Origin: Pseudomonadota bacterium
GTDB taxonomy: Bacteria; Desulfobacterota; Desulfuromonadia; Geobacterales; Pseudopelobacteraceae
DNA: 33,119 nucleotides
Assembly: GCA_019352135.1 (NCBI GenBank)
Contig: JABBNX010000020.1
Span: 1 to 33,119, forward strand
Reading direction: 5' to 3'
Below are positions 18,346 to 33,119 of the stretch, in pieces; the stretch's first letter is position 1; each line of letters opens with the position of its first letter. The position numbers were made by a program, and so were the translations under genes. A model generated the notes under the pieces. It was not told the origin of the DNA and did not search any database. It was given only the letters and a program-made list of their open reading frames with translations.

Positions 18346-19170
18346 GTGCGGGACTTTGCCAATTCATCATACCAGCGCAGAAAAGTGGCGCCCAACAAAG
18401 TCAAGGTTCAGCGTAAACCGCTTGACCTTAAAAAGCATCTGCGCCTGATAAAGGTGGTTGCCACCGGCCTGGGCGCGCTCATCCTGATGAGCGGCATCGC
18501 GTATGGAGGCTATCGGGCTATAACATCGGTGACCCTGTTCTCTCTCAAATCAATCGAAGTATCGAACGTAAAACACCTGACCCGTGAAGAGATCCTCGGC
18601 TTGGCAGGTCTAGAGCCGGGCAAAGATCTGCTCCGCATGAATCTGAAAAGCATGGGTGAACATATCCTGCAGAACCCCTGGGTTGAAACGGTACGCATTA
18701 ACCGGTATTTTCCGGATACTGTTTCAATCGCCATCACCGAGCGTGAACCGGTGGCAATTGTCAACATGGGTTTCATTTACTATCTTGATAAAAAAGGAAA
18801 TATTTTCAAGGTACTTAATCAGGGCGATAAGCTTGATTATCCGGTTATTACCGGCTTCAGCGAAGAAGATCTGGGCAGCGATCCAAAAGGGACACGGGAG
18901 GCACTTGAAGCCACCTGTGATCTCCTGAATATATTACATGAAAAGGGCGCATTAATCCTTGCGGATGTATCAGAGATTCATTACGATAAGGGGTATGGTT
19001 TTACTCTGTTTACCGCTTCCGGGGCCCTTCCGGTCAAGGTCGGTTCGGAAGATTTTCCCGCAAAAGTGGAGCGCTTCGCCCGCATCTACCGGGATCTGAT
19101 GGTGCAGCTACCATCAATTAGTTACATCGACCTCGATTATAACGACAAAATAATTGTAAAAAAGAGCTAA
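18346..19170 (+). CDS. ftsQ: Cell division protein FtsQ
   Basis: A 274-residue bitopic protein: a basic cytoplasmic N-terminus (residues 1-38), one membrane segment at about 38-58 and a POTRA domain at about 64-135 (LFSLKSIEVSNVKHLTREEI), followed by the FtsQ beta domain. FtsQ links FtsL/FtsB to the divisome in the periplasm. The GTG start is supported by AAGGAAAC 8 nt upstream at the end of ddl. A 37-bp gap leads to ftsA. Confidence 0.93.
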   Translation: MRDFANSSYQRRKVAPNKVKVQRKPLDLKKHLRLIKVVATGLGALILMSGIAYGGYRAITSVTLFSLKSIEVSNVKHLTREEILGLAGLEPGKDLLRMNLKSMGEHILQNPWVETVRINRYFPDTVSIAITEREPVAIVNMGFIYYLDKKGNIFKVLNQGDKLDYPVITGFSEEDLGSDPKGTREALEATCDLLNILHEKGALILADVSEIHYDKGYGFTLFTASGALPVKVGSEDFPAKVERFARIYRDLMVQLPSISYIDLDYNDKIIVKKS

Positions 19171-19207
19171 TTACCACATTTATATTTATGCAGCAGGAGG
19201 GAGCGGT

Positions 19208-20446
19208 ATGTCAGCTACAAAACGGGAAAATCTGATCGTTGGCCTCGACATCGGCACCACCAAGATTTGCGCGATTGTCGGCAATGTCACGGAAGAAGGT
19301 ATCGATATCGTCGGCATCGGGACAAGCCCTTCCAGCGGCCTGCGCAAAGGTGTTGTCATCAATATTGAAAGTACTGTGGGGGCAATTCGCAAAGCCATTG
19401 AGGAAGCCGAATTAATGGCGGGTTGTGAAATCAAGTCCGTCTATGCCGGCATTGCCGGCGGACATATCAAGGGGCTTAACTCGAACGGTGTGATCGCTAT
19501 CAGGAATCGTGAAGTTTCACAAGAGGATGTACGCCGGGTTATCGACGCCGCCAAAGCGATCAACATCCCGATGGATCGTGAAGTGCTGCATATCCTGCCG
19601 CAGGAATTTATCATTGATGAACAGGACGGCATTCGCGAACCGCTCGGCATGAGCGGCGTCAGACTGGAAGCCAAGGTGCATATTGTAACCGGTGCCGTGG
19701 CAAGTGCCCAGAACATTGTTAAATCATGCAACCGGGCCGGACTGGATGTCGCTGACATCGTCCTGGAACAATTGGCGTCATCCCACGCAGTCCTCTCCGA
19801 AGATGAAAAGGAACTCGGCGTCTGCATGGTGGATATCGGTGGCGGAACGACCGATATTGCCATTTTTGCAGATGGGGCGATCAAATATACATCGGTAATT
19901 TCGCTCGGGGGCAACCAGCTTACGAACGATATTGCCGTAGGACTCCGCACCCCGTTTGCCGAAGCTGAGAAGATCAAGCAGAAATACGGGTGTTGCCTGG
20001 CTTCGCTCGTCGGCAAGGAAGACAAGATTGAAGTGCCGAGTGTCGGGGGGCGCAAGCCTCGTGAACTTTCACGCAACGTCTTGTGCGAAATTCTTGGCCC
20101 GCGCATGGAAGAGATCTTCTCGCTTGTCAATCGCGAGATCATTAAATCCGGACTGGAAGATTCTATCGCATCAGGAGTCGTTATCACCGGCGGTTCCAGC
20201 ATCCTGGAAGGGATACCGGAACTGGCAGAGCAAATATTCAATCTGCCGGTTCGCCGGGGCCTTCCCCAGAAGATCGGCGGCTTGACGGACGTCGTGAAAT
20301 CTCCGGTTTATGCTACCGGCGTCGGCCTGGTGGTTTATGGAAGCCGCAACTCGGGATCCCGCGAATTCCCGACCGGCAAACCGGAAGCAAACCTGTTTGG
20401 ATCCGTTTTCGGACGGATGAAGGGCTGGTTTCGAGAGTTTTTCTAA
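19208..20446 (+). CDS. ftsA: Cell division protein FtsA
   Basis: A 412-residue actin-like ATPase that tethers FtsZ to the inner membrane. Phosphate-1 motif VGLDIGTTKICAIVG is at residues 12-26, the second phosphate motif MVDIGGGTTDIAIF at about 206-219, and an adenosine motif VVITGGSS near 322. The C-terminus ends in an amphipathic helix (FGRMKGWFREFF), the membrane-targeting tail. A very strong AGGAGGGAG precedes the ATG, suggesting its own translation rate apart from ftsQ. Confidence 0.97.
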   Translation: MSATKRENLIVGLDIGTTKICAIVGNVTEEGIDIVGIGTSPSSGLRKGVVINIESTVGAIRKAIEEAELMAGCEIKSVYAGIAGGHIKGLNSNGVIAIRNREVSQEDVRRVIDAAKAINIPMDREVLHILPQEFIIDEQDGIREPLGMSGVRLEAKVHIVTGAVASAQNIVKSCNRAGLDVADIVLEQLASSHAVLSEDEKELGVCMVDIGGGTTDIAIFADGAIKYTSVISLGGNQLTNDIAVGLRTPFAEAEKIKQKYGCCLASLVGKEDKIEVPSVGGRKPRELSRNVLCEILGPRMEEIFSLVNREIIKSGLEDSIASGVVITGGSSILEGIPELAEQIFNLPVRRGLPQKIGGLTDVVKSPVYATGVGLVVYGSRNSGSREFPTGKPEANLFGSVFGRMKGWFREFF

Positions 20447-20475
20447 CCTGACCTAAAATTATTTTATTTTTTCTT

Positions 20476-20504
20476 TTGATTCTTGGCCAAATAGAGGTTA
20501 CATT
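20476..20504 (+). promoter_or_regulatory. Candidate promoter ahead of ftsZ
   Basis: TTGATT (20476-20481) and TACATT (20499-20504) are separated by 17 bp in the 109-bp ftsA-ftsZ gap. A separate ftsZ promoter is common in other bacteria. The match is moderate and not tested. Confidence 0.4.
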
Positions 20505-20555
20505 TCCGTCACACTTAATCGAATCCGGGTCATTATACATATAGAGGAGGGATGC

Positions 20556-21725
20556 ATGTTTGAATTTGATGAGACCATTGAACAAAGTGCCGTTATTAAA
20601 GTAATTGGAGTCGGTGGCGGCGGTGGCAATGCCGTCAATACCATGATATCCAGTTCCATACATAAAGTAGATTTTATTGTTGCCAACACAGATGCCCAGG
20701 CCTTGCGCACGTCAAAAGCCCCGGTCAAACTCCAGATCGGCAGGGAGTTAACCAAAGGACTTGGAGCCGGTTCAAAACCCGAGGTTGGAACTGCTGCTGC
20801 TCTTGAAAACAAGGGACAACTTGCAGAAGCAATCAAAGGAGCTGATCTGGTTTTCATCGCTGCCGGAATGGGTGGTGGCACCGGCACCGGTGCGGCACCG
20901 GTTATCGCCGAAGCTGCCCGTGAAACCGGCGTTCTCACCGTCGGAGTCGTAACCAGACCCTTCACATATGAGGGTAAAGCACGTTCGGTTCTCGCAGAAC
21001 AGGGAATCGCAGACCTGAAAAAACATGTCGATTCACTGATCATCATCCCCAATGACCGCCTCATAAGCCTGGCCAGCAAGAACATGTCTCTCTTCGACGC
21101 ATTCAAACCGGCAGATGACGTTCTTCGTCAGGCTGTTCAAGGGATTTCCGAACTGATCACGTCAACCGGGCTGATGAATCTGGACTTTGCCGATGTCAAA
21201 ACGGTTATGAGTGTCCGCGGTATGGCCATGATGGGCATTGGCATGGGCAATGGCGAGAATCGCGCTGCCGATGCCGTTAATAATGCCATCTCCAGCCCGT
21301 TGCTGGAAGACAATGACATCTCGGGCGCCAAAGGGGTGCTGGTCAACATCACCGGCTCTGAATCCATGACTATGGACGATTATAATACGGTCAACCGCAT
21401 CGTTCATGAGAAAGTTCACGAAGAAGCCAATATCAAGATTGGTGTCGTCCGTGATGACGAGATGGGAGACACCATAAAAGTAACCGTCATCGCCACCGGT
21501 TTTGGCGATCGGTTTGATGTTGAAAAAAGTCGTGACATCCGTAGAAGCAGCATCTCATTGGCAGAGAAACATGTCGTCACTCCGGTATCTCTCGATCGAC
21601 CGACCTTCCAGCGCGACCGTGAAAAGACAGAAAGCATCACAAGAATCCGTCCGACAGTCTCATTTATTGAAGAAGATGAAGACCAGTACGACATTCCAAC
21701 TTTTTTACGTAAATCAGTGGATTAA
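20556..21725 (+). CDS. ftsZ: Cell division protein FtsZ
   Basis: A 389-residue tubulin-like GTPase forming the Z-ring. The tubulin signature GGGTGTGAAP is at residues 106-115, the T7 catalytic loop NLDFADVKTVM at about 208-218, and the conserved C-terminal tail YDIPTFLRK at about 378-387 binds FtsA. AGAGGAGG 5 nt before the ATG is one of the strongest ribosome sites in the window, in line with the high amount of FtsZ cells need. It closes the dcw cluster. Confidence 0.98.
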   Translation: MFEFDETIEQSAVIKVIGVGGGGGNAVNTMISSSIHKVDFIVANTDAQALRTSKAPVKLQIGRELTKGLGAGSKPEVGTAAALENKGQLAEAIKGADLVFIAAGMGGGTGTGAAPVIAEAARETGVLTVGVVTRPFTYEGKARSVLAEQGIADLKKHVDSLIIIPNDRLISLASKNMSLFDAFKPADDVLRQAVQGISELITSTGLMNLDFADVKTVMSVRGMAMMGIGMGNGENRAADAVNNAISSPLLEDNDISGAKGVLVNITGSESMTMDDYNTVNRIVHEKVHEEANIKIGVVRDDEMGDTIKVTVIATGFGDRFDVEKSRDIRRSSISLAEKHVVTPVSLDRPTFQRDREKTESITRIRPTVSFIEEDEDQYDIPTFLRKSVD

Positions 21726-21730
21726 AACCA

Positions 21731-21780
21731 GCCATGCCGGGAAGGAGCCTGCCATGCGGCAGGCTCCTTCCCGGCATGGC
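21731..21780. terminator. Perfect 23-bp stem-loop after ftsZ
   Basis: Bases 21731-21753 are exactly complementary to 21758-21780 with a 4-nt loop ATGC. It starts 6 nt after the ftsZ stop. On the plus strand no T-run follows, while on the minus strand the stem is followed by TGGTTTT. It may stop transcription, protect the ftsZ mRNA end, or be a mobile palindromic repeat. Confidence 0.6.
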
Positions 21781-21985
21781 CGTATCCATCCTGATTCTGC
21801 ACTCACCACGTCTTCCTACCCTGCTTTATCCAATACATTTTCACATCTACCCAGTTAACAATCTGATATATCTCAATTATTTTATTTTCGAACACGTCAT
21901 TAAAATTTTTCTGGACGAACGGGAAACTCTCCCGTATCCTAATTAATCGCACCATATTACTATACAAACAATGAGAGGCAATCCA

Positions 21986-22489
21986 ATGGCACACGCAGAA
22001 AAAGGCAACACTGTAACAATTAACTTTACCGGAACGCTTGAAGACGGAACGGTATTCGACTCGACTCTTGAAGACACTGAATGCTGCGAAGATGAATGCT
22101 GTGATGACGGTTGTGAAGATGATGAATGCGGCTGCGGCGGCCATGAAAGCGGACCGATGACGTTCGTATTGGGAGAGGAAATTCTCTTCCCCCAAATAGA
22201 CGCTGCCATTGTCGGCATGACTCCGGGAGAAAAGAAAACTGTCAAGATCTCTGCAGCCGACGCTTTTGGAGAGTACGACAAGGAGAAAATATTCACCGTA
22301 CCACGCAGCGATCTTCCGGAAGATCTTATTCCTGAAGTCGGCGATGAACTGAGCCTCTCTAATGAGGATGACGAGGAACTTGATGTTGTCGTTCTCGAAA
22401 TGACGGAAGACCAGGTTACCTTTGATGCCAACCACCCGCTCGCCGGTGAAGACGTAACCTTTGAGATCGAACTGATAAGCATTCAGTAA
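21986..22489 (+). CDS. FKBP-type peptidyl-prolyl isomerase, SlyD-like, Cys-rich insertion
   Basis: A 167-residue cytoplasmic FKBP-family prolyl isomerase/chaperone of SlyD type: VTINFTGTLEDGTVFDST at the N-terminus, GMTPGEKK and AFGEYDKE in the middle, then an IF-like chaperone domain and the closing strand VTFEIELISI. Unlike E. coli SlyD there is no metal-binding His tail. Instead a loop after FDST carries seven Cys (residues 33, 34, 38, 39, 43, 48, 50) and His53 among many acidic residues. The start at 21986 has GAGAGG 7 nt upstream; the ATG at 21971 would itself overlap that site. Acts on protein folding and perhaps metal handling, the latter by inference. Confidence 0.88.
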   Translation: MAHAEKGNTVTINFTGTLEDGTVFDSTLEDTECCEDECCDDGCEDDECGCGGHESGPMTFVLGEEILFPQIDAAIVGMTPGEKKTVKISAADAFGEYDKEKIFTVPRSDLPEDLIPEVGDELSLSNEDDEELDVVVLEMTEDQVTFDANHPLAGEDVTFEIELISIQ

Positions 22490-22541
22490 GGCATCGACAC
22501 AATAAGCGTTCCGGGTACAGTTTCCGAAGCGCAGGAATCTG

Positions 22542-22577
22542 AACAAAAAAAACGGCCACGCGGCCGTTTTTTTTGTT
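22542..22577. terminator. Strong bidirectional rho-independent terminator
   Basis: CGGCC-ACGC-GGCCG (22553-22566) is flanked by a run of eight A on the left and eight T on the right, which also pair. It ends the FKBP gene and would also stop minus-strand transcripts from the right. Confidence 0.92.
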
Positions 22578-23337
22578 ATTCAATGTGCCACAACAATGTT
22601 AAAGCAAATTAAAATTATTCTGGTACGCCACCAAAACAAATAAACGTAATAAAATGCAATAGTTATGTGTAGTTACAATAACAAGAAAAAATTCTGGTCA
22701 GGTCGCTTGATACTAAACTGGTTAAGAGTTAAAAGTCAAGACTCCAAAACAAGAACTATTTTAACCATTTGCGAGTAATTCAAAGCTAAAAGTATCCTGA
22801 TTTATACACAAAAACATTTTGCGGGGTAATGCCTTAAGTAACTGATATTATGTGTTTTGTCTATGCCCGCGTCTGATAAATTTCATATTTCTTGTTTTTT
22901 GGTCACCGTTTGGTACACCGTTAGTCCTGAGTTAGTACACCCTAGTTTTCTTGCATCTGCTGCAGCGTTCTACGGAAGCTGACAATGTTATATTTACTAG
23001 AAACTCCCGTGGGTCATTATTTTCGGATGCGCGTACCGAAGGACCTCCGCAAACAGACGGACATCTACAGTTTTTGCTTGCTGGGCGCGGGGTATTACTT
23101 CATTGCAGCAGTTGCGGGGCATTGAATCAAAAGGGACAAGATTCTTGAGTGAAACATATGATTTAATTGGTGGATGGAATATACATAACTAACGTCTTAG
23201 CTTTATTGCGCCGGGCACCTGAGTTCCGTCAATCGACCAACCGCATATACCTAGGTACCTCCGCATGCGGCGTTACCCAGGCTCGGCCAGACAACCAGAT
23301 ACACCGGATGTCCCCCAAAAAAATACGGGTAGTCATT
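22578..23337. other. About 760 bp with no credible gene
   Basis: AT-rich DNA to about 22930, then more mixed composition. Frames up to 65 codons exist (for example 22951-23148 and 23167-23361 on plus) but have no ribosome site and no recognisable family. The 10-bp palindrome CCGCATGCGG lies at 23261-23270, and GGTACACC/AGTACACC occur 21 nt apart near 22912-22940. It lies between the housekeeping block and a recombinase and may hold an island junction. Confidence 0.5.
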
Positions 23338-23601
23338 TCAACGGAATTTGAGCGACAATGAACTTTCAACTGCCTGTCTGACAAACTCATACTCCTGCAT
23401 CATCCTCAGCAGATCAATCGCTGTCATTCCTGTATCCCGATAATACCAGTTCCGCACCCGTTCTACAGGTATGTTGAGTTTGCTCGCAACCTGCTTTGTC
23501 GTAACCCCCTGCTCTTGCAGCAACCTCATAATATATCTCGTTACCTCGCCATTGTTGAGATTTTTTTTGTGGCTAATCTGCCACAGATTCTTTGTAGACA
23601 T
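23338..23601 (-). CDS. Small helix-turn-helix protein, 87 aa
   Basis: An 87-residue protein with a helix-turn-helix-like centre: VTTKQVASKLNIPVERVRNWYYRD around residues 33-56, followed by a Leu/Met-rich helix. Size and position, divergent from the recombinase gene with about 65 bp between the two starts, suggest a local repressor or accessory factor of the recombinase module. I do not recognise a named family. The ribosome site is weak (AAGGGG very close to the ATG). Confidence 0.65.
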   Translation of the reverse strand: MSTKNLWQISHKKNLNNGEVTRYIMRLLQEQGVTTKQVASKLNIPVERVRNWYYRDTGMTAIDLLRMMQEYEFVRQAVESSLSLKFR

Positions 23602-23666
23602 ATGCCCCTTGTCGGATGAAAAGTATTACTGGAAAATTTTGCGTTGTAACAAGGAGTACCCAGAAT

Positions 23667-25268
23667 ATGCTGCAAACTGGAAGGGCATATACTCCAGATG
23701 AAATCAAAAACCTGCACCTTAAAGGCGCGATGTATATTCGCATGTCCACAGAGCTGCAGGTAGAATCGCCGGAAAATCAGAACCGCGCAATACGTACCTA
23801 TGCCGCTGAGTACGGCATTGAAATTATTAAAACCTATGTTGATCCGGGCGTTAGCGGAATAACTGAAAAACGGGAGCAGTTTCAGACTTTGATTGATGAC
23901 GTGGAGCAAGGGCGTAACGGATACAACATTGTCCTGTATCTGGATGCAAGTCGCTGGGGACGGTTTTTAGACAGCCGCGAGGCTGAGTATCACCGGATGA
24001 GATTGGAACGCAGAAACGTCGTGTGTCAGTCCTGCGAAAAACCGCTGACGCTGACCAGCAATATCGCTGACCGGATTATGACCCTGCTTCGAGACGAAAG
24101 CGCCAGCGACTATTGCCGACAGCTTTCACAGAAGGTGTGGGTGGGACAATGCAACCTGGTGACGAAAGGATTCCGGCAGGGAGGCGTGGCAGGTTTTGGG
24201 CTTCGGCGCATGTTGCTGGATGAGACCGGTAGACCCAAGCAGGAATTGGCAATGGGGCAGCGTAAAAGCCTGCTCACCGAGCGGGTGATTCTGATGCCGG
24301 GCTCAGACGAGGAACGGGGGATTGTGATCTGGATTTATGACCAGTTCATTGCCGGGATAAGTGAAACTGAAATTGCTACGCAGTTGAACGCAAAAGGAGT
24401 GAAAACCCATTTTAGTCGTCCATGGTCACGAGGAACTGTGTGCGAAGTGCTGACCAATGAAAAATATGTTGGCAACAACTTATTCAACCGCACATCTGGC
24501 AAGATGAAGAGTAAAGCCAAACCCAATCCGGAAAGCGAGTGGGTTCGCAAGGAACGCGCCTTTGAGCCCATAGTCGATATGGAGCGTTTCTACACGGTCC
24601 AGGGGATATACCGGGAACGGAACAAAAAGACTACCGACGAAGAACTACTGCAAGGTCTGCGGGACTTATATGCCAGGCAAGGACGCCTTTCCGCGCTGAT
24701 AATTGACGAAGCGGATCATTTACCTCCCAGTAGCCTGTTTAGTACTCGCTTCGGCGGACTTTTGCGGGCCTACCAGATGATCGGTTATTCCCCGAAGCAC
24801 GACTATACGTATATTGACATAAACCAACGGTTGCGCGTTCTTCATGCCGAAATAGTGGCTGACGTTGTTCACAGCATAGAGAGCCTCTGCTGTAGACAGA
24901 TTCCCATAGATCCGAAAAGCTGCCTGTTGGAATTGAATCACAATCTATCTGTCTCGGTTGTCATCAGCCGTTGCTTTACCACACCAGCCGGAACACGGCG
25001 CTGGAAAATCCGTTTTGATAGCGGCCTTTATCCCGACATAACCGTAGCGGTACGCATGGACACCCGCAATGAAGCGATCTACGATTACTATATCCTGCCC
25101 GCGTTGGAGTTCTCACATGGGCAGTTAAAGCTATCGGAGGACAACGTAGGGTTTCTGGACAGCTTTCGTTCTGATACGTTGGATTATTTGCTGAATTTGA
25201 GCATTAACATCTCTCTCGACAAGGCGGTGGAATATGGTGCAAGGGGCAATAATACTTATTTCCATTGA
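23667..25268 (+). CDS. Large serine recombinase
   Basis: A 533-residue serine-family site-specific recombinase. An N-terminal resolvase domain has the catalytic Ser in AMYIRMSTE (Ser27) and the DASRWGRF segment near residue 92. A Recombinase domain follows (GFRQGGVAGFGLRR near 170). A long C-terminal part (from about 340) contains LSALIIDEADHLP and RFGGLLRAYQMIGY, blocks also found in recombinases of this subtype. The start at 23667 has AAGGAG 10 nt upstream; the earlier ATG at 23616 has none. It overlaps the next gene by 35 bp, so the recombinase and two ParB-like genes form one operon. Its DNA target is not known. Confidence 0.88.
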   Translation: MLQTGRAYTPDEIKNLHLKGAMYIRMSTELQVESPENQNRAIRTYAAEYGIEIIKTYVDPGVSGITEKREQFQTLIDDVEQGRNGYNIVLYLDASRWGRFLDSREAEYHRMRLERRNVVCQSCEKPLTLTSNIADRIMTLLRDESASDYCRQLSQKVWVGQCNLVTKGFRQGGVAGFGLRRMLLDETGRPKQELAMGQRKSLLTERVILMPGSDEERGIVIWIYDQFIAGISETEIATQLNAKGVKTHFSRPWSRGTVCEVLTNEKYVGNNLFNRTSGKMKSKAKPNPESEWVRKERAFEPIVDMERFYTVQGIYRERNKKTTDEELLQGLRDLYARQGRLSALIIDEADHLPPSSLFSTRFGGLLRAYQMIGYSPKHDYTYIDINQRLRVLHAEIVADVVHSIESLCCRQIPIDPKSCLLELNHNLSVSVVISRCFTTPAGTRRWKIRFDSGLYPDITVAVRMDTRNEAIYDYYILPALEFSHGQLKLSEDNVGFLDSFRSDTLDYLLNLSINISLDKAVEYGARGNNTYFH

Positions 25269-26100
25269 AGATATTCACATCTTGAATCCACGGGTACGCA
25301 ATCAAATTATTGCCGAAGAAATACGGCAAAACATTTTGAGCGTCGGCTTGAAAAGGCCCATAACGGTATCTCCCAGAAATGATGCTAAAGGTGGCAAGAA
25401 ATATGATCTGGTTTGTGGACAGGGAAGGCTTGAGGCATATATTTCTGCTGGAGAAACGGAAATGCCCTGTGTCGTTCGCAAAGTGAGTGAAGAAGATGCG
25501 CATATTATGAGTCTGGTGGAGAATATCGCCCGACGTAATGGTAATGCCCTGGAACTTCTTCAAAGCATCAAGTATCTGAAAAGCCAGGGTTACGAGGATG
25601 ACGCCATTGCTGCTAAGACTAATCTTGGCAAAGACTATATTCGAGGCATTATCCGTCTGTTAGAGCAAGGAGAGGAATACTTGGTCAACGCAGTGGAAAA
25701 AGGACGAATCCCTTTATACCAGGCACTGAACATAGCTTCGGAAGATGACACTGCCGTACAGATGGCTTTGACAGAAGCGTATGAATCGGGAGCATTGACC
25801 GGCAAAAAGCTTGTTGATGCACAAAAGATTATTTCCCGGCGGAAACATTACGGCAAAAGCCTTTCAGCTCCACACCGTGAACATGCCAAGGTTTCCGCAG
25901 AAGATTTGATTGCGGTCTATGAAAAGGAAGCTAAGGAGAAGAAGCGGTTACTGGCTCAATCAAATTATATCAAGGAGGTTTTGGACTACACGTCCACTGC
26001 CCTTCGCCAGTTATTGAAGGAAGTCCATTTTACCAATCAACTGAAAGCCGTCGGCATGAATGAAATTCCCCAGCATGTAACTGACCTTCTGAAAAGGTAG
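25234..26100 (+). CDS. ParB/RepB-like nuclease-fold protein
   Basis: A 288-residue protein with an N-terminal ParB-like domain: a PITVSPR segment near residue 40, CGQGRLEAYISAGETEMPCVV near 63-83 and SLVENIARRNGNALELL near 93-110, the box where ParB proteins bind CTP and the clamp forms. Then a helix-turn-helix segment (DDAIAAKTNLGKDYIRGIIRLLEQG) and a Lys-rich C-terminal helix. There is no ParA gene nearby. The start lies inside the recombinase gene (35-bp overlap). Likely DNA-binding partner of the recombinase; real partitioning is doubtful without ParA. Confidence 0.82.
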   Translation: MVQGAIILISIEDIHILNPRVRNQIIAEEIRQNILSVGLKRPITVSPRNDAKGGKKYDLVCGQGRLEAYISAGETEMPCVVRKVSEEDAHIMSLVENIARRNGNALELLQSIKYLKSQGYEDDAIAAKTNLGKDYIRGIIRLLEQGEEYLVNAVEKGRIPLYQALNIASEDDTAVQMALTEAYESGALTGKKLVDAQKIISRRKHYGKSLSAPHREHAKVSAEDLIAVYEKEAKEKKRLLAQSNYIKEVLDYTSTALRQLLKEVHFTNQLKAVGMNEIPQHVTDLLKR

Positions 26101-26105
26101 CGGCC

Positions 26106-26999
26106 ATGGCAAACAGAATTAAGCAGAGTTTCCAGGAAAAACTGATTGAGCTTGCCGTGGAGGAATTGTTCCCCACAAAAAACATTTCCATTACTGTAAG
26201 ACATTGCAGAAAATATTCTCAGGTACTTTCCTCCATACGGGAAGTGGGGCTGATAGAGGCCCCTGTGGTCGCTCCGTTGAAGAAAGAAAAAGGATATCTT
26301 CTGCTCGATGGGCATGTGCGTATAATGGCTCTGAAGGAATTGGGGGTGGAGCGCGTTTTCTGCCTGATCTCCACTGATGACGAGACCTACACCTACAACA
26401 AATACATCAATCGGCTTACAGCAATTCAGGAACATCATATGATTGTGAAAGCCGTGCAGTCAGGAGTCTCTGAAGAAAAGCTCGCCCGTGCCTTAAATCT
26501 TGACATCGGCACTATCAGAAATAAGAAGAATTTGCTTGAAGGTATTTGTCCAGAGGCTGTCGATTTGCTGAAGGATAAGGCCGTGCCGGAACCGGTTTTC
26601 AAAGTGTTGAGAAAAATGCAGGCGCCTCGGCAAGTTATCGTCGCCATGTTGATGAACGACCAGAATAAGTTCAACTCCAACTACGCCAAGGCACTTTTGG
26701 AAGCAACACCCTCACATCAGCTCATCAATAGAGGCAAACCGAAAAAGGAGACTCCAGCAATACTGGCGCGCCAGGCTCGTCTTGAAGAGGAGAGTCTTGC
26801 CTTGTCCACGGAAATTGGCTCATTGAAGGAGCAGTATGGTACAGCAATGATAGATATGACATCTATGCAGGCGTATTTGAAAAGATTGATCCGTAACGAA
26901 GCGGTTGCAAAATATCTACGTGATTTCAATGAGTCGTTTTATGACAAATTCAAGGAAATTGCTGAACTTGACTTTTTTAGATTGAAAAATATGGAGTGA
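26106..26999 (+). CDS. ParB/RepB C-terminal domain protein
   Basis: A 297-residue protein with a diverged ParB-like N-terminus (YLLLDGHVRIMALKELG near residue 64, NRLTAIQEHHMI near 102), a helix-turn-helix at about 120-145 (SEEKLARALNLDIGTIRNKK) and a C-terminal region of the type annotated as RepB plasmid-partition C-terminal domain. It is 5 nt downstream of the other ParB-like gene, with AAGG upstream. It retains the DGHxR in place of the GxRR/GERR of true ParB. Together with the recombinase it makes a three-gene module whose job is not known to me. Confidence 0.8.
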   Translation: MANRIKQSFQEKLIELAVEELFPTKNISITVRHCRKYSQVLSSIREVGLIEAPVVAPLKKEKGYLLLDGHVRIMALKELGVERVFCLISTDDETYTYNKYINRLTAIQEHHMIVKAVQSGVSEEKLARALNLDIGTIRNKKNLLEGICPEAVDLLKDKAVPEPVFKVLRKMQAPRQVIVAMLMNDQNKFNSNYAKALLEATPSHQLINRGKPKKETPAILARQARLEEESLALSTEIGSLKEQYGTAMIDMTSMQAYLKRLIRNEAVAKYLRDFNESFYDKFKEIAELDFFRLKNME

Positions 27000-27185
27000 G
27001 ACAGATAATTGCGATCGCTTTGACCATGAATCGGTGCTGCTCATAGTCTGGAGGCATGCTTGTTTTTCACTTTGCTATTTCCAAGCTGCTACAAGTTTGT
27101 AAACTGACATTTTGACACTATCTGAAATCAATTGTTTTGAAAGAGAATCATAGCAATATTTACGTTAGGGTGAAAAAAGTGAAAG

Positions 27186-27203
27186 GGCCGGGTTGCCCCG
27201 GCC
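27186..27203. terminator. GC-rich hairpin between convergent operons
   Basis: GGCCGGG-TTGC-CCCGGCC. On the minus strand it is followed by CTTTCACTTTTTTC and could end the higB-higA-small peptide unit; on the plus strand by TTCCGTTT and could end the recombinase-ParB operon. The remaining 27000-27185 holds no gene I can see. Confidence 0.65.
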
Positions 27204-27220
27204 TTCCGTTTGTAGTTACT

Positions 27221-27328
27221 TCATTCTCTCATCAGTAGCAGAGCAGTTAGATAAAACATCTCTCCGACCTGCGTGGTCTCTGGCAATAAAAAATATACTG
27301 CTCCAGCGGTAATGATGAACCACTTCAT
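27221..27328 (-). CDS. Unlisted 35-aa hydrophobic peptide
   Basis: An ATG at 27328 with an excellent ribosome site (TGGAGG, 6-nt spacing) opens a 35-codon frame. The peptide has two hydrophobic stretches (WFIITAGAVYFLL at residues 3-15 and MFYLTALLLM at 24-33) separated by a short polar PETTQVGE turn. It lies 65 bp downstream of the HigA-ImmA gene on the same strand and ends 18 bp before the GC-rich hairpin. A short palindrome CTGTCGTCACGACAG (27343-27357) precedes its ribosome site. It may be a small membrane protein or a toxic peptide; no family recognised. Confidence 0.5.
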   Translation of the reverse strand: MKWFIITAGAVYFLLPETTQVGEMFYLTALLLMRE

Positions 27329-27342
27329 GTGATGCCTCCAGT

Positions 27343-27357
27343 CTGTCGTCACGACAG
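27343..27357. promoter_or_regulatory. Palindrome upstream of the small peptide
   Basis: CTGTCG-TCA-CGACAG is a perfect 6-bp inverted repeat with a 3-nt centre, starting 3 nt upstream of the ribosome site for the 35-residue peptide. It could be an operator or an RNA hairpin. Confidence 0.45.
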
Positions 27358-27392
27358 TCTTTGTATTAACCCATTTCTGGGGTGCTGCTTAC

Positions 27393-28583
27393 TTATGTAT
27401 AGAGCCTACGAACTTTATTGCGACCAATCAATCCGTCATACAATTTATAGTTACCAGTTTCCTTGCGGATACGGCCAGCCGGGATTGCTGGAGTTATTCT
27501 AAGGCTGGTAGCAAAATTGTGAACAGCTTGAATTGTAGGCCTTTTCCCAAGGTGGGCCGTTTGCCATGATTCCGGCGGGATCAGTGCATCTGAAGCCCAA
27601 TGGTCTGCATCGCTCTCGAAAAGATCAAGTCCCGCCTGCTCAAGATCATCGAAAAATGCGGTTTCTTCGCCGTCAAAATGAAGCGCGATATGTGCCAACT
27701 CATGACTAAGGGTAAACCAGAAATTATCCAATCGGTCATGACGCAGAGTCACGGCAACGAGTGGCGAGTCGTCCGGCAATTTTATTGCGGCGCCATCCAG
27801 ATGGGTATGCTTGAGGTGACTTTCCACAACAAAATGAATACCATTTTTGAGAAGAAATTCCTGTGCCAGCAGCGGCCCATCATCCATATAACTTAGGCGA
27901 ACCAGGTCATGGACAAAATCTTGAGTGACCGTTCCCTTCTGGTATTTTGGTACCTTCTGTTCCATTGCCAACAGTGACACCCGAATCCGCCATGCGGTAA
28001 GCGCATAATTGTCTGCATCACTTCCAGCGCGTACGTGCTGACGCAGCAGAGCAGGTTGCGGAATCTCGAAACTGAATTCACGCGCCCACTTTGTGAGTAA
28101 TTCACACGCCTGTTTTTTTGCCTCTGCGACGGTACCATGAAAATCTTGGAACCAGTTCCGCTTGAACATTTCTGCTAACGGAAACCGATCCCACTCAATG
28201 CCCTCTGGTGCGGGTATTATCTGCGCTCCAGGCTCTTTAAGCAGCACGTCTGCAGGTATCCCCAAGCCTTCATGCAACTTGCGGATCATGGTGATACTCA
28301 ATGGGCGCTGGTGTGACAGAATTTCTGAAACCTTGCTACGGCTGCCAATAAATGGGATCAGATCTTTCTGTTTCAGTCCCGCCTGCTCCATACGGAATTT
28401 AATTGCCTCAATCGGATCAGGCAGGTCTATCGGATGGGCAACTTTTTCGTATAGTTCGACCAGGGTAACCAACAATTCCAGTTCGTCACCCTCAGGGGTG
28501 CCTGGGTCGGCATCCATCAATGTGTCAATTCGTTCAAGTGCCGTGTCGTATTCGGCTTCCGTTTTAATTATTTTGGGGATCAT
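27393..28583 (-). CDS. HigA-type antitoxin fused to ImmA/IrrE metallopeptidase
   Basis: A 396-residue two-part protein. Residues 1-120 are HigA-like, with an acidic helical lead and an Xre-type helix-turn-helix (IKFRMEQAGLKQKDLIPFIG and SKVSEILSHQRPL, about 62-95). Residues 170-395 form an ImmA/IrrE-type zinc peptidase with HELAH at about 295-299 and a downstream ESDADHWA helix giving the third ligand. In ImmA systems the peptidase cleaves a phage-type repressor; fused to an antitoxin it may control the antitoxin itself or serve another target. The TGATG overlap with higB fixes coupling; ATG at 28583 is preferred over the GTG just before it. Confidence 0.85.
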   Translation of the reverse strand: MIPKIIKTEAEYDTALERIDTLMDADPGTPEGDELELLVTLVELYEKVAHPIDLPDPIEAIKFRMEQAGLKQKDLIPFIGSRSKVSEILSHQRPLSITMIRKLHEGLGIPADVLLKEPGAQIIPAPEGIEWDRFPLAEMFKRNWFQDFHGTVAEAKKQACELLTKWAREFSFEIPQPALLRQHVRAGSDADNYALTAWRIRVSLLAMEQKVPKYQKGTVTQDFVHDLVRLSYMDDGPLLAQEFLLKNGIHFVVESHLKHTHLDGAAIKLPDDSPLVAVTLRHDRLDNFWFTLSHELAHIALHFDGEETAFFDDLEQAGLDLFESDADHWASDALIPPESWQTAHLGKRPTIQAVHNFATSLRITPAIPAGRIRKETGNYKLYDGLIGRNKVRRLYT

Positions 28584-28876
28584 CACACTACCTCGACGTC
28601 AATTGCGTCATATTCCTTGTGGGTGCCAATAAAGCGGATGAGTACCACTCCGTTTTTGTAGCTGATTTTAACCACCAGCCGATACTTGTTACCGCAGATA
28701 TTAAAAACGACCCGGCTGTCCTTAATGATGCTGGCGTTTCGGTGCTGGGTCTTTATTTCAGCCGGAGACTGCCAACAAGCGGTTGCAGCTTCTGCATACC
28801 AGAATTTAAGGGCATCCTCGGAATCCGGAAATCGTGTCCAGAATTCACGCAATGTTCGTTTTGCAACAACTCTCAT
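28583..28876 (-). CDS. higB: HigB-type mRNA interferase toxin
   Basis: A 97-residue protein of the HigB toxin family (RelE-like fold, ribosome-dependent mRNA cleavage). It contains LREFWTRFPDSEDALKFWY near residues 9-27, the ASIIKDSRVVFNICGNKYRLVV core at 48-69 and the C-terminal RFIGTHKEYDAI block, all typical of HigB. It precedes its HigA-like partner, the usual order of higBA loci, and shares the TGATG overlap. There is no clear ribosome site; the -10-like TATACA ends only a few nt from the start, so the mRNA may be nearly leaderless. Confidence 0.88.
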   Translation of the reverse strand: MRVVAKRTLREFWTRFPDSEDALKFWYAEAATACWQSPAEIKTQHRNASIIKDSRVVFNICGNKYRLVVKISYKNGVVLIRFIGTHKEYDAIDVEVV

Positions 28877-28879
28877 TCA

Positions 28880-28931
28880 TGTATACCAGTTCCCTGATTT
28901 ATTTCAATAATAAAAATTCCCATTTTGGGAA
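28880..28931 (-). promoter_or_regulatory. higBA promoter with palindromic operator
   Basis: On the minus strand, TTGAAA and TATACA are 16 bp apart directly before higB. Just upstream is the perfect palindrome TTCCCA-TTT-TGGGAA (28917-28931). HigA antitoxins repress their own promoters through such palindromes. Confidence 0.6.
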
Positions 28932-29046
28932 ACATTTGGCATAAAAAACATTTGCTGCTCAGTACTGTCGATAATGCATTACTCCGTTTATCACCGTTCC
29001 ACGCTCCCGTGACTCCCTCTGTACAAACAAAATCTATTTCAAGGTT

Positions 29047-32000
29047 TCATCCGTTATTCTGTTGTTCATACAACGCCCTCAAAAACTGGTGCCCTCTCGC
29101 CCCATAAATATTGCAGATTTTATCGGCGGCCTCTTTGTTCCCTGCCTCATATAAGAAATTTACAACTGACAGAATATGCTCCTGGTCATAATCAGGCGTG
29201 AAACTTTCCAGCATTGCCAAATAAAGAATGCCAATATGCCCCGCTGACTCAACCGGTTCGCCTTTATATTTCAGGTGATCAAGCTCTTTGATCACTGAAT
29301 ATGCGTGGTGATTCACGTTAGCTAAAGGCAACGCTTGCAACAGCCACTTGGAGTTTTCATCATCAATTTGTGACAGGAATACTGCCAGCCTTGAAATGTT
29401 AGATAAAAGGGATTTTTCCTCTCTGGAATATTCACTGGCAGTCTTATCTGAAAACCGTTCGTAGAGCCATCTCCAGAAACTGATTACCTTTGCAATAATC
29501 TCTTGATTATGTGGCTCATCATTTTCAGCAATCCTACGTTGCATCCAGAAGAAATCCACCACCTCTTTTAAGAGGTCGAGATTGCCATCGCGAATGAGTT
29601 TCCCAAACAGGCAATTGTCTTCAAGCGTTTCATTGCCTCGAAGATAGCCAAGTGATAAATGCTGAATAAGTCGATCCTTGACTTCTTTTTTGGCGAACTC
29701 AAAACCGTAGGCACGTTCGTAATTCGCTTTCATCAGCTTGAAAAGTTCATCATAAACATGACTGCTGTAGAGATAGCCGTACATAAAATATGACCACAGC
29801 AGGTCGTTTTCAATAGTTTCAAGTTGCTGGATCATGCTCCGTGTCCAGTCATTATCTAAATAAGAAATATTAGGGAGGTATTCGCCAAAGAACACATAGG
29901 CTTCAATTTTGTTGTGATGAAGTGCCTTTGAATAAGCATCTCGCAATTCCGGTCGCCATCGTGGCTGGGTAGATTGCTCTTTCTCGTTGTCAAGGCTTGC
30001 AAGTCTCAACGACAGATAGATCAGTGCAAGAACTAGTTTCCCAGATGGTGAATTCAGGGAATAAGAAATAGGATCAGATTTGGCTTCACCGTCTTCATCC
30101 GCCTCATTTGACTTGGACAAAATCCATAACAAGAACTCTTGCACTTGTGGCAGAAGATCATCCTCAAATTCCCAGGAGCGATCTTTCGTCCCGGCTTGGA
30201 TTAACTCTGCAACCTGCCCAACAACCCAGCCATGCCCGGCATTCCAGCTACCATCTTCCAGTTTATATGTGTCATTCCAGAAAGCCACTGGCCCCATATA
30301 CTGCTGTAGAAAGTCGAATGCAGCCGCCCAGCTGACGGATTTTTTTGAATTCCAGCATTCCAGTAAGCCGCGAAGTATTTCATAAATGTAGTAATAACTT
30401 GTGGAGAGGAATGGCTGCAGATCTGCGGTGAGCTTTTCTGGGTTTTGCTTGGCTAACTCCCTAATCGCTTGAGCAAGCCCTTCATAAGTTGGCCCATCGT
30501 CCCATCGCGATTTCTGTCGGAACTCCATCAGATACTTGGCAATATCTGAATTCGGCAACTCTAGCATGTCTTCGTATTTGAGGGGTGACTCGCCTGGCCC
30601 GACCCATCCAGATTTGACATGACCGATAGCGGGTGCCATTTCAGCATCGGTACCGGTAACAAGCTTGAGCCGATTGTACTCTTCCAGAAACTCTGGATCG
30701 ACAGCAGACAATGCCCCATAACGCTGCTGTTTCCAGAAAGCAATATCTCGTTCCGGATTGTCTCGATCCCTCTCTTTTGGCCCCTTTTCAATAATAGTTT
30801 TCAGAATCGTTTTCTGTTCTGGTGACAAGTGCCGAAGTTTCAGGAAAACATGCTTGATCTCATCAGTGAAACAGATGTCATCCTCACCGAAGAATTTTGG
30901 CTTTGCAGCAATAAAGTCCCACAGGAGATCAGTATAACCATCGCAAGAACCAATGACATATAAAGCAAGCTTGGGGAATATTAGGTGCTTTTCGTTGAAA
31001 AGCTTACGGAGTGCTTCCGTCGTGGCATCAATATTTGTGTTGGTTTTTGCGATAAGAACCTTTTTCAAGATGTCCGTTAGGACATCAAGTGGATCAGTCA
31101 GATGGTATTCAGGTTCTTCATGCAGTGATTGATATGACCGGTAGGGCTTTTCATCGTCTCCGAGAAGAATTTTCAAGTTGTTGCAAATATTGTAAACGAC
31201 CTCATTGGAAAGCCATTTGCCGATATTGCTGGAATGCTTATTAAATGATTCTTCAAGCCAATGCGGTTCAACAAATAATTTACCGTTCTCCTTGTTGACC
31301 GATGTTATGTATGTAATTATTTTTTCGGCTTTATCTATGCTTTGAATTGAACTGAAATCAGACAGGAATTTGGACAATAACTGTATTGAGATGGTGGAGT
31401 CAGCCAATGTTGCAGAAAAGTTGCTTTGCAGCCATATGGGAATCAAGTCAATAACATCGAGGGGGATTTCTGAATTGGGAATATTCAGCAAACATTTTAC
31501 GAAAAACCACCAAGTACGATAATTATCAATATGTTGATCGTTAGAGTTTTTGTAAAGTGATACAGATTTTATGATGTTCAATAATTCAGGTATATGATGT
31601 TTATTTTCATCCTTAGACATCTGAACAGAAACAGCTTCTAAGTATGGCAGCACGATCCATTCAGGGATTGAAAAATATCCTTCTTGCGCTGCTTTCTCTG
31701 GCTCAGGGTTATTTTCTGGATCAAAATACCCCTCTTTTATCAGTAACGGTAGCCACTCTATCGAGGTAATGCTACTAAAGAAATGCCTTCTGAATGGGGT
31801 GTCATTTTTGATCAACTGCAGAATTTCAGAGGTGGTTCCTTCATCCGTCGGTCCAGAGCATTCCTCTAGTATTTTAAAAGTCTTGTATTGATATGAGGTT
31901 GTTAGATTGATTTCCTTTTGCCATTTTTCAATTACTGAAAACAGTTGATTATATCCATTCGTATCAATCGCATAAGGACAGACAACAACACCAAGTTGGC

Positions 32001-32775
32001 TGAAATAACTTTTTTCAAAACGAAGCAGACTTTCTTCAACCTTGTAGAACGGAAGCAGCAGCAGATTGTTAGTTTCGTGACTCACATTCGGTTTTATTGC
32101 CGGATTTCCCTTAAGCAACAAGTAATCGAGGATTTCCATTTCTGACAAGCTATAGCCAACAAACAATACCAGATACTTCCCACCAAATATTTCTCTCAAA
32201 AAACTTTGAACCGTATTGTCATTGTAATGTTTGATATAGTCTCTTGTTGCAAAAACTATTGATTTTTCTTGAGTTATGCATCCATGCAATTTGAACAATG
32301 TATTGATTTTTATGTTTTCAGATTTGAAAGAAGAAGAGTCTCTAAATATCCTTGATTCGTTGAATTTATTATCGAAATGAACGTCTATGTTTGTAGTTAT
32401 ATAGATACCACGCAGCTTAATAAGCTCGTCGTATATTGGATATTTAATTGCTTTCTCAGGATTTGTTTCGAGACAATTGCGTATGGTTGAATAATAGTTT
32501 TCTGCTGGCAACAACCCTTTCAGAATACTGATGCTTTTTCGCGGGTCATTTCCAAGTAGACGCTCTTTTTCCCAGTGGTTAATTACTTTTGATTCGTATG
32601 CCGATTCTATGAGTTTATCAGCAACACCTTTCCATCTCTCGCAACCGAGAAGAGTAGAACAACCAGCACCAACAAATACGACAAGCTGCTTTGACCCAAT
32701 GTTCTTAATTACATCAGGTAGTTGCGGTTCGTCGTATATTTCGTGTGATAGCTGTTCTGGTGGAGAAGGGTTCAT
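29047..32775 (-). CDS. SIR2-domain large protein, likely antiphage effector
   Basis: A 1,242-residue protein. The N-terminal 250 residues form a SIR2-like NAD-binding domain: GAGCS at 36-40, ITTNID with Asn129 and Asp131, KLHG with catalytic-type His164 and FVGYSLSEMEI near 205-215. These key residues are kept, so NAD hydrolysis is plausible, as in known defence sirtuins that deplete NAD on infection. The rest (about 300-1242) is helical, Trp/Leu-rich, with WLPLLIKEGYFDP and PEWIVLPYLE blocks suggesting HEAT-like repeats. No P-loop is visible, so it does not look like a STAND NTPase. It follows hsdS directly. An alternative TTG start at 32820 overlaps hsdS by 14 nt. Confidence 0.87.
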   Translation of the reverse strand: MNPSPPEQLSHEIYDEPQLPDVIKNIGSKQLVVFVGAGCSTLLGCERWKGVADKLIESAYESKVINHWEKERLLGNDPRKSISILKGLLPAENYYSTIRNCLETNPEKAIKYPIYDELIKLRGIYITTNIDVHFDNKFNESRIFRDSSSFKSENIKINTLFKLHGCITQEKSIVFATRDYIKHYNDNTVQSFLREIFGGKYLVLFVGYSLSEMEILDYLLLKGNPAIKPNVSHETNNLLLLPFYKVEESLLRFEKSYFSQLGVVVCPYAIDTNGYNQLFSVIEKWQKEINLTTSYQYKTFKILEECSGPTDEGTTSEILQLIKNDTPFRRHFFSSITSIEWLPLLIKEGYFDPENNPEPEKAAQEGYFSIPEWIVLPYLEAVSVQMSKDENKHHIPELLNIIKSVSLYKNSNDQHIDNYRTWWFFVKCLLNIPNSEIPLDVIDLIPIWLQSNFSATLADSTISIQLLSKFLSDFSSIQSIDKAEKIITYITSVNKENGKLFVEPHWLEESFNKHSSNIGKWLSNEVVYNICNNLKILLGDDEKPYRSYQSLHEEPEYHLTDPLDVLTDILKKVLIAKTNTNIDATTEALRKLFNEKHLIFPKLALYVIGSCDGYTDLLWDFIAAKPKFFGEDDICFTDEIKHVFLKLRHLSPEQKTILKTIIEKGPKERDRDNPERDIAFWKQQRYGALSAVDPEFLEEYNRLKLVTGTDAEMAPAIGHVKSGWVGPGESPLKYEDMLELPNSDIAKYLMEFRQKSRWDDGPTYEGLAQAIRELAKQNPEKLTADLQPFLSTSYYYIYEILRGLLECWNSKKSVSWAAAFDFLQQYMGPVAFWNDTYKLEDGSWNAGHGWVVGQVAELIQAGTKDRSWEFEDDLLPQVQEFLLWILSKSNEADEDGEAKSDPISYSLNSPSGKLVLALIYLSLRLASLDNEKEQSTQPRWRPELRDAYSKALHHNKIEAYVFFGEYLPNISYLDNDWTRSMIQQLETIENDLLWSYFMYGYLYSSHVYDELFKLMKANYERAYGFEFAKKEVKDRLIQHLSLGYLRGNETLEDNCLFGKLIRDGNLDLLKEVVDFFWMQRRIAENDEPHNQEIIAKVISFWRWLYERFSDKTASEYSREEKSLLSNISRLAVFLSQIDDENSKWLLQALPLANVNHHAYSVIKELDHLKYKGEPVESAGHIGILYLAMLESFTPDYDQEHILSVVNFLYEAGNKEAADKICNIYGARGHQFLRALYEQQNNG

Positions 32776-32806
32776 AGTATCCAGTTTACTCTGTTGTGTA
32801 GTTTGA

Positions 32807-33119
32807 TTACTCCTGATCAAATGCTTCCCGCAGCACTGTCTGCATCAGCAAATGCGCCTGTTCCTTCCGTTCGACAACCTGTATTTCCAACTCATCGATA
32901 ACGGCCATGAGGCTATCAACGCGGGCAACGATAGCTTGTTGTTCGGCGAGAGGGGGAAGGGGGATAATCATCTCTCTGCATTGAGTCAACGAAATATTGT
33001 CCTGTCCAACAACGCCAAGAGTTTGTATTTTTCGAATCTCTGCGCCCTCGTTCAAATACAAGTACTGGACTTTAGAGTTGCAGCGCCACCTTTCCGCCAT
33101 CAAGGCGGGTCGTATGGCG
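32807..33119 (-). CDS. hsdS: Type I restriction-modification specificity subunit HsdS (partial, C-terminal end)
   Basis: The minus-strand frame is open at the window edge and ends at 32807, so only about the last 103 residues are seen. They show the end of a target-recognition domain (NISLTQCREMIIPLPPLAEQ) and the conserved spacer helix (IVARVDSLMAVIDELE), both hallmarks of HsdS. HsdS directs the methyltransferase HsdM and nuclease HsdR to a bipartite DNA site. The rest of the operon lies beyond the window. The next gene downstream is the SIR2 protein, so the pair are probably co-transcribed. Confidence 0.88.
   Translation of the reverse strand, partial: AIRPALMAERWRCNSKVQYLYLNEGAEIRKIQTLGVVGQDNISLTQCREMIIPLPPLAEQQAIVARVDSLMAVIDELEIQVVERKEQAHLLMQTVLREAFDQE

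Follow-up and report, generated by a model that had tools for sequence, protein, structure and literature searches.

A serine recombinase operon with two ParB-fold RepB-type proteins and no ParA, a putative site-specific recombination module of mobile DNA

Large serine integrases and Ccr recombinases, among them phiC31, Bxb1, SPbeta SprA/YokA, TP901-1 and CcrA/B/C, have in common a Resolvase catalytic domain followed by a Recombinase domain. In the known large serine integrases, a zinc-ribbon domain with a coiled coil controls the direction of recombination. The operon described here encodes an enzyme with the same two domains, but it lacks the zinc ribbon and any CxxC motif, carries another C-terminal domain and is accompanied by two RepB-type proteins. 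These partners resemble ParB, Spo0J, Noc, KorB and the RepB of repABC systems in their ParB_N and RepB domains, with structure and sequence matches to CTP- or CDP-bound ParB, Noc and KorB. They differ from them in forming a tandem pair behind a recombinase, in having no ParA and in that one of the two, RepB2, departs from the ParB nucleotide motifs.

The module lies at positions 23338–26999 of a 33,119-nt stretch of DNA, the window (contig JABBNX010000020.1, GCA_019352135.1), from a member of the Pseudopelobacteraceae (Table 1). The open reading frame list and Pfam searches located its four genes, encoding a divergent HTH protein, a serine recombinase, a ParB_N plus RepB-domain protein (RepB1) and a RepB-domain protein (RepB2), exactly where an earlier note on this DNA had placed them. 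That note had described overlapping or nearly touching genes with a divergent HTH gene, and this was borne out: the recombinase and RepB1 genes overlap by 35 bp, and 5 bp separate RepB1 from RepB2. It had also pointed to two ParB/RepB-like proteins without ParA; indeed, neither the open reading frame list nor family scans revealed a ParA within 19000–33119, and none was found in the annotated homologous operons. This combination makes ordinary partition unlikely, in agreement with the role other than partition suggested there. Identical arrangements were found in other genera and phyla, which argues that this one is more than chance. A mur/fts cluster and slyD precede the module, and no tRNA was found in the window. 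The G+C content falls from 52% in the chromosomal part to 47% in the module and 43% beyond it. The short tail that follows RepB2 showed no convincing structure.

Table 1. Coordinates of the module, its neighbours and the linked RNA (window positions unless a locus is given).
Feature	Position	Strand	Evidence or remark
Island left junction, folD 3' end (convergent with slyD)	22619-22634		Empty site in relatives G020 and G027
DUF6538 tyrosine integrase remnant, first 25 codons	22985-23059	+	tblastn E 1e-7, 19/25 identical to the G030 integrase
Small HTH gene, putative regulator	23338-23601	-	Weak HTH matches; divergent HTH gene likewise placed in homologous loci
Palindrome TGTGGCTAATCTGCCACA, candidate operator or parS-like site	23568-23585		Kept as TGTGGCARATCTGCCACA in most Geobacter-type copies
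Large-serine-recombinase-type enzyme without zinc ribbon	23667-25268 (ORF opens 23616)	+	Pfam, catalytic residues, fold match
RepB1, ParB_N plus RepB-domain protein	25234-26100	+	Pfam
RepB2, RepB-domain protein with ParB-like fold	26106-26999	+	Pfam, fold search
Short tail 3' of RepB2, module right border	27000-27070		Common to some relatives only; homology stops here
PD-Lambda-2 A and B (HigB-like toxin and HTH/ImmA protein), neighbouring cargo	27393-28876	-	PADLOC 7.5e-43, 2.2e-144
Dsr1 (SIR2 defence protein), neighbouring cargo	29047-32820	-	PADLOC 9.3e-241
HsdS fragment, neighbouring cargo at contig end	32807-33118	-	Pfam 2.7e-07, PADLOC
Structured RNA, example	L116:10901-11050		Also in 69 other loci

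The recombinase matches the Pfam families Resolvase (1.6e-17) and Recombinase (1.3e-21), and a fold search matched it to serine integrases (E 7e-14) over about 335 columns. Its translation probably starts at 23667, because an AAGGAG motif lies upstream and the homologues begin there. When 30 diverse copies were aligned, the residues S27, R25, D93, R96 and R99 were invariant or nearly so; the enzyme thus has both the serine-recombinase catalytic domain, with its nucleophilic serine and arginines, and the Recombinase domain that define the class. In the place of the zinc ribbon stands a different domain with no Pfam match: all 95 homologues (95/95) lack CxxC in the C-terminal part, and no Pfam zinc-ribbon family matched. 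The match to SCC CcrB was weak, its 55 bits falling short of the NCBIfam equivalog cut-off of 900.

RepB1 matches RepB (1.3e-12) and ParB_N (1.5e-09) in Pfam, aligns with Spo0J/ParB across the nucleotide motifs and retains most ParB motifs, including GxGR and ENxxR. RepB2 has the stronger RepB match (3.8e-35) and a fold like those of ParB, Noc and KorB; it has DGHxR, and its second motif is incomplete. Both are thus ParB-fold DNA-binding proteins of the kind found in partition systems, in this case with no cognate ParA ATPase. Their fold suggests that they may use CTP. Since the recombinase is without the domain that otherwise supplies control of direction, RepB1 and RepB2 are natural candidates for that task, and we infer that the two proteins may provide it.

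The HTH gene is present in 60 of the 82 homologous loci where the contig has room for it, and in Geobacter-type copies the palindrome TGTGGCARATCTGCCACA lies at its 5' end; the gene probably encodes a repressor. Two unusual loci involve this gene. In one (L042:1-553), its 3' part is fused exactly to the RepB2 start codon, the recombinase and RepB1 being gone, through either a deletion or an assembly artefact. In the other (L027:11188-11922), a second, inverted partial module, consisting of the HTH gene and the recombinase start, lies beside a complete one.

Comparison with relatives of the same order delimits the module. DNA similarity of about 80–94% sets in near the HTH stop codon and stops near that of RepB2; beyond these points the sequences are mostly different. 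Roughly a third of the genomes of the same genus carry the module, in a patchy distribution and sometimes in two or three copies; one of them has it in three places. At least 573 RepB2 relatives were recovered in the genome scan, mainly from Alphaproteobacteria among the matches listed, and 48 in the viral scan. The order recombinase–RepB1–RepB2 is the same throughout the loci examined, whether these are chromosomal or lie on plasmids or phage contigs, and at the protein level the three genes with the divergent HTH gene also occur on plasmids of Agrobacterium, Sphingobium, Roseomonas and Aminobacter and on one gut phage scaffold. Where the contig has room, RepB2 is accompanied by RepB1 in 106 of 109 loci and by the recombinase in 89 of 93. 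The distances of the three proteins correlate (r 0.48–0.60), above all 500 permutations. Had such triplets been decayed plasmid remnants, as the earlier note considered, no conserved order would be expected; by these comparisons, the module is a conserved operon and a discrete unit. On several viral contigs, the genes 3' of it include those for tail fibre J and other tail proteins or for a primase-helicase, and prophage integrases are usual in such a position.

Hints that the module moves come from Agrobacterium pAt plasmids. In this region pAtC58 (NC_003064.2) and pAt1D1460 share only the 3904-bp module, at 96.9% identity, in different surroundings. The sequence CCTTGANNGGRRTYGAACC, whose complement resembles a tRNA T-arm, stands at both module borders on both plasmids (one border with one mismatch). 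Allowing up to two mismatches, it occurs 16 times on pAtC58, always on one strand, against 0 occurrences of a reversed-pattern control. On other pAt plasmids the sites lie in one-strand blocks, and repeated strand-polar sites were found on NC_003064.2, NZ_CP032928.1, NZ_CP109970.1 and NZ_CP039899.1. Pairs of sites about 889 bp apart were seen in three places, bracketing a VapC-type operon in two, and further pairs enclose a single nucleotidyltransferase gene or other PIN-domain operons. On two of these plasmids the module thus appears as a member of a series of toxin-antitoxin and defence cassettes, with a repeated polar site between one cassette and the next. The SoFic gene that adjoins the module recurs alone on many plasmids, and the pAt plasmids of C58, CFBP5507 and CFBP5877 have three different sequences beyond one and the same AbiE flank. 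A replichore polarity of the sites was unsupported, all those of pAtC58 lying on one strand over 40–411 kb, and only blockwise strand polarity is claimed.

This arrangement recalls integrons and other cassette arrays, in which small cassettes are likewise separated by one repeated polar site. It differs from integrons in its serine rather than tyrosine recombinase, in its short T-arm-like site instead of attC and in the scattering of the sites over the plasmid. The module recombinase may act on the pAt sites; on pAt plasmids that carry the sites but no module, it would have to do so in trans. Cassettes bounded by one repeated site were found on the Agrobacterium pAt plasmids and not in the other lineages examined. 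The site was absent, by sequence and by scan, from the surroundings of five other rhizobial modules, and it was rejected as a general module border and kept as lineage-specific. At the left end of the window module, TTTCAACGGAATTYGAGC was rejected as a dispersed site, with 5 matches in its genome against 6 in the control. Of the attachment repeats that the earlier note proposed to look for, candidates stand at the module borders on pAtC58 and pAt1D1460; none were found at other Agrobacterium modules or for the window left end, and the link to a site comes from one lineage. By eye, the Geobacter left end resembles the pAt site, an observation to which we attach no claim.

The neighbourhood of the module is rich in defence genes, both in the window and in homologous loci. 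In PADLOC and Pfam tallies over 104 flanking proteins, the leading entries are SoFic/Fic, Hachiman, DrmD, Brx, mads, McrBC, AbiEii and type I methyltransferases, an enrichment that we state in qualitative terms. In the window, PD-Lambda-2 and Dsr1 are adjacent to each other and both convergent to the module. Geobacter relatives show three combinations of cargo, the module with CARF (D) and Jet-like (B) in one genome, and with Jet-like (B) or with CARF (D) in others, and one locus of the last kind is followed by a scrap of another RepB2. Of the features that the earlier note proposed to look for around homologous triplets, defence genes are present; the flanks vary, and no constant defence partner was found among the 104 proteins.

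These neighbours, together with the patchy distribution, would suit a module that is itself a defence system, in which invading DNA would be loaded with the ParB-like proteins and then damaged or rearranged by the recombinase that they recruit. We consider this unlikely. PADLOC models gave no match for the recombinase or RepB1 and one at only E about 0.005 for RepB2, and no constant effector or partner accompanies them. Moreover, the module also sits beside phage structural genes and in plasmid backbones, and defence islands often contain mobility genes in any case. The earlier idea that the proteins sense foreign DNA consequently finds no direct support in the PADLOC matches or in a constant partner.

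Site-specific recombination in mobile DNA must also be weighed against a role in plasmid or island stability or multimer resolution, the recombinase being a resolvase and the RepB-like proteins ParA-independent segregation or copy-control factors. The RepB-family membership agrees with this, as do the frequent occurrence on large, mostly conjugative plasmids and the position on Sphingobium plasmids, where the module looks like a stable part of the backbone. However, it occurs equally on chromosomes and phage contigs, it has no ParA, the domain layout of the recombinase is closer to integrases than to resolvases, and the flanks change as they do in mobile units. This role appears no more probable to us than defence.

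A structured RNA accompanies many copies. In 70 of 133 homologous loci other than the window, a conserved element of about 115 nt is found in exactly one copy, 5–100 nt 3' of RepB2 and on the same strand. Its alignment (n=43) supports 28 pairs, of which 20 show compensatory changes; 95.6% of cells are paired, more than in any of 500 shuffles, and pairing fell to 31–46% when the partners were slid. Several positions have G-U pairs, which speaks for RNA rather than folded DNA. No Rfam family matches, and HEARO/omega-RNA was considered as its identity and dropped. The element lies inside the mobile-looking unit, just 5' of a terminator-like hairpin beyond which similarity ends. RNA-bearing modules were found in Alphaproteobacteria, and the element is absent from the window and from other Geobacter-type copies, including the Geobacter tail, so some versions of the module do without it.

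The module of the window occupies an island at the 3' end of folD. Relatives G020 and G027 have the folD 3' end immediately after slyD; in the window genome they lie apart, with the folD end at the start of another contig (C51). A further relative, G030 (L255), has an island at the same site with an intact tyrosine integrase (Pfam Phage_integrase 7.5e-10). Because of this intact integrase and the remnant of its counterpart in the window, we conclude from the comparison that a tyrosine integrase, since truncated, put the window island in place, and that the serine-recombinase module either is its cargo or arrived later. The island resembles tyrosine-integrase islands in its location but, unlike that of G030, retains only 25 codons of the integrase and then the module. 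As the first intact gene cluster past the left junction, the module had been a candidate for the island's own integrase; this was rejected, since the truncated integrase lies between junction and module. In another Agrobacterium lineage, copies of the module (L243, L244, L245 and L249) adjoin TniQ/TniB/Mu-type transposase (or IstB/integrase) genes. That the module is passive cargo throughout, an old operon with another role such as gene regulation by the RepB-like proteins, shuffled by other integrases, would fit the window island, the Agrobacterium copies beside TniQ/TniB/TniA genes and a regulatory function of the linked RNA, but it seems very improbable, given that 30 diverse copies all keep the catalytic residues unchanged, which indicates recombination under selection, and that the module alone changed surroundings between pAt plasmids.

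Taken together, these results best support a role as a self-contained module for site-specific recombination in mobile DNA, which we regard as moderately probable. It is favoured by shared DNA that ends at the module borders, by the patchy, sometimes multicopy occurrence, by the conserved order and co-divergence of the three proteins with their invariant catalytic residues, and by the bordering pAt site, the swapped surroundings, the placement beside phage tail and primase genes and the shuffled Geobacter cargo. It is weakened by the restriction of the site to one lineage, its presence on module-free plasmids, the placement of the window island by a tyrosine integrase and the backbone position in Sphingobium. 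The serine recombinase would cut and rejoin DNA at short sites, moving the module, neighbouring gene cassettes or both. The two RepB-type proteins would bind DNA near these sites and assist in synapsis, directionality or regulation; as accessory factors they would take the place of the missing zinc-ribbon/coiled-coil domain and need no ParA. The HTH protein would probably act as a repressor in the 65-bp promoter region. Of the two ideas in the earlier note, guidance of recombination is accordingly the better one, since the module behaves as a mobile unit; the ParB-like proteins may do the guiding in an accessory role.

The recombinase and the ParB-type proteins are of known kinds. In open-access full text we found no description of this gene set, and the fixed association of its genes, the absence of a zinc ribbon and the linked RNA appear to be undescribed there. 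A bolder proposal, which we put forward tentatively and as the less likely case, is that a zinc-ribbon-less serine recombinase and two ParA-less ParB-type clamps, with a dedicated RNA in Alphaproteobacteria, form a machine for collecting and exchanging defence and toxin-antitoxin cassettes of one operon each, which would make it the serine-recombinase equivalent of an integron. The module bears on the open question of how anti-phage genes gather and swap in islands. The parts of the module are small enough for laboratory testing. This widespread module would offer a concrete, testable mechanism for defence-gene exchange and a use of ParB-type proteins other than partition.
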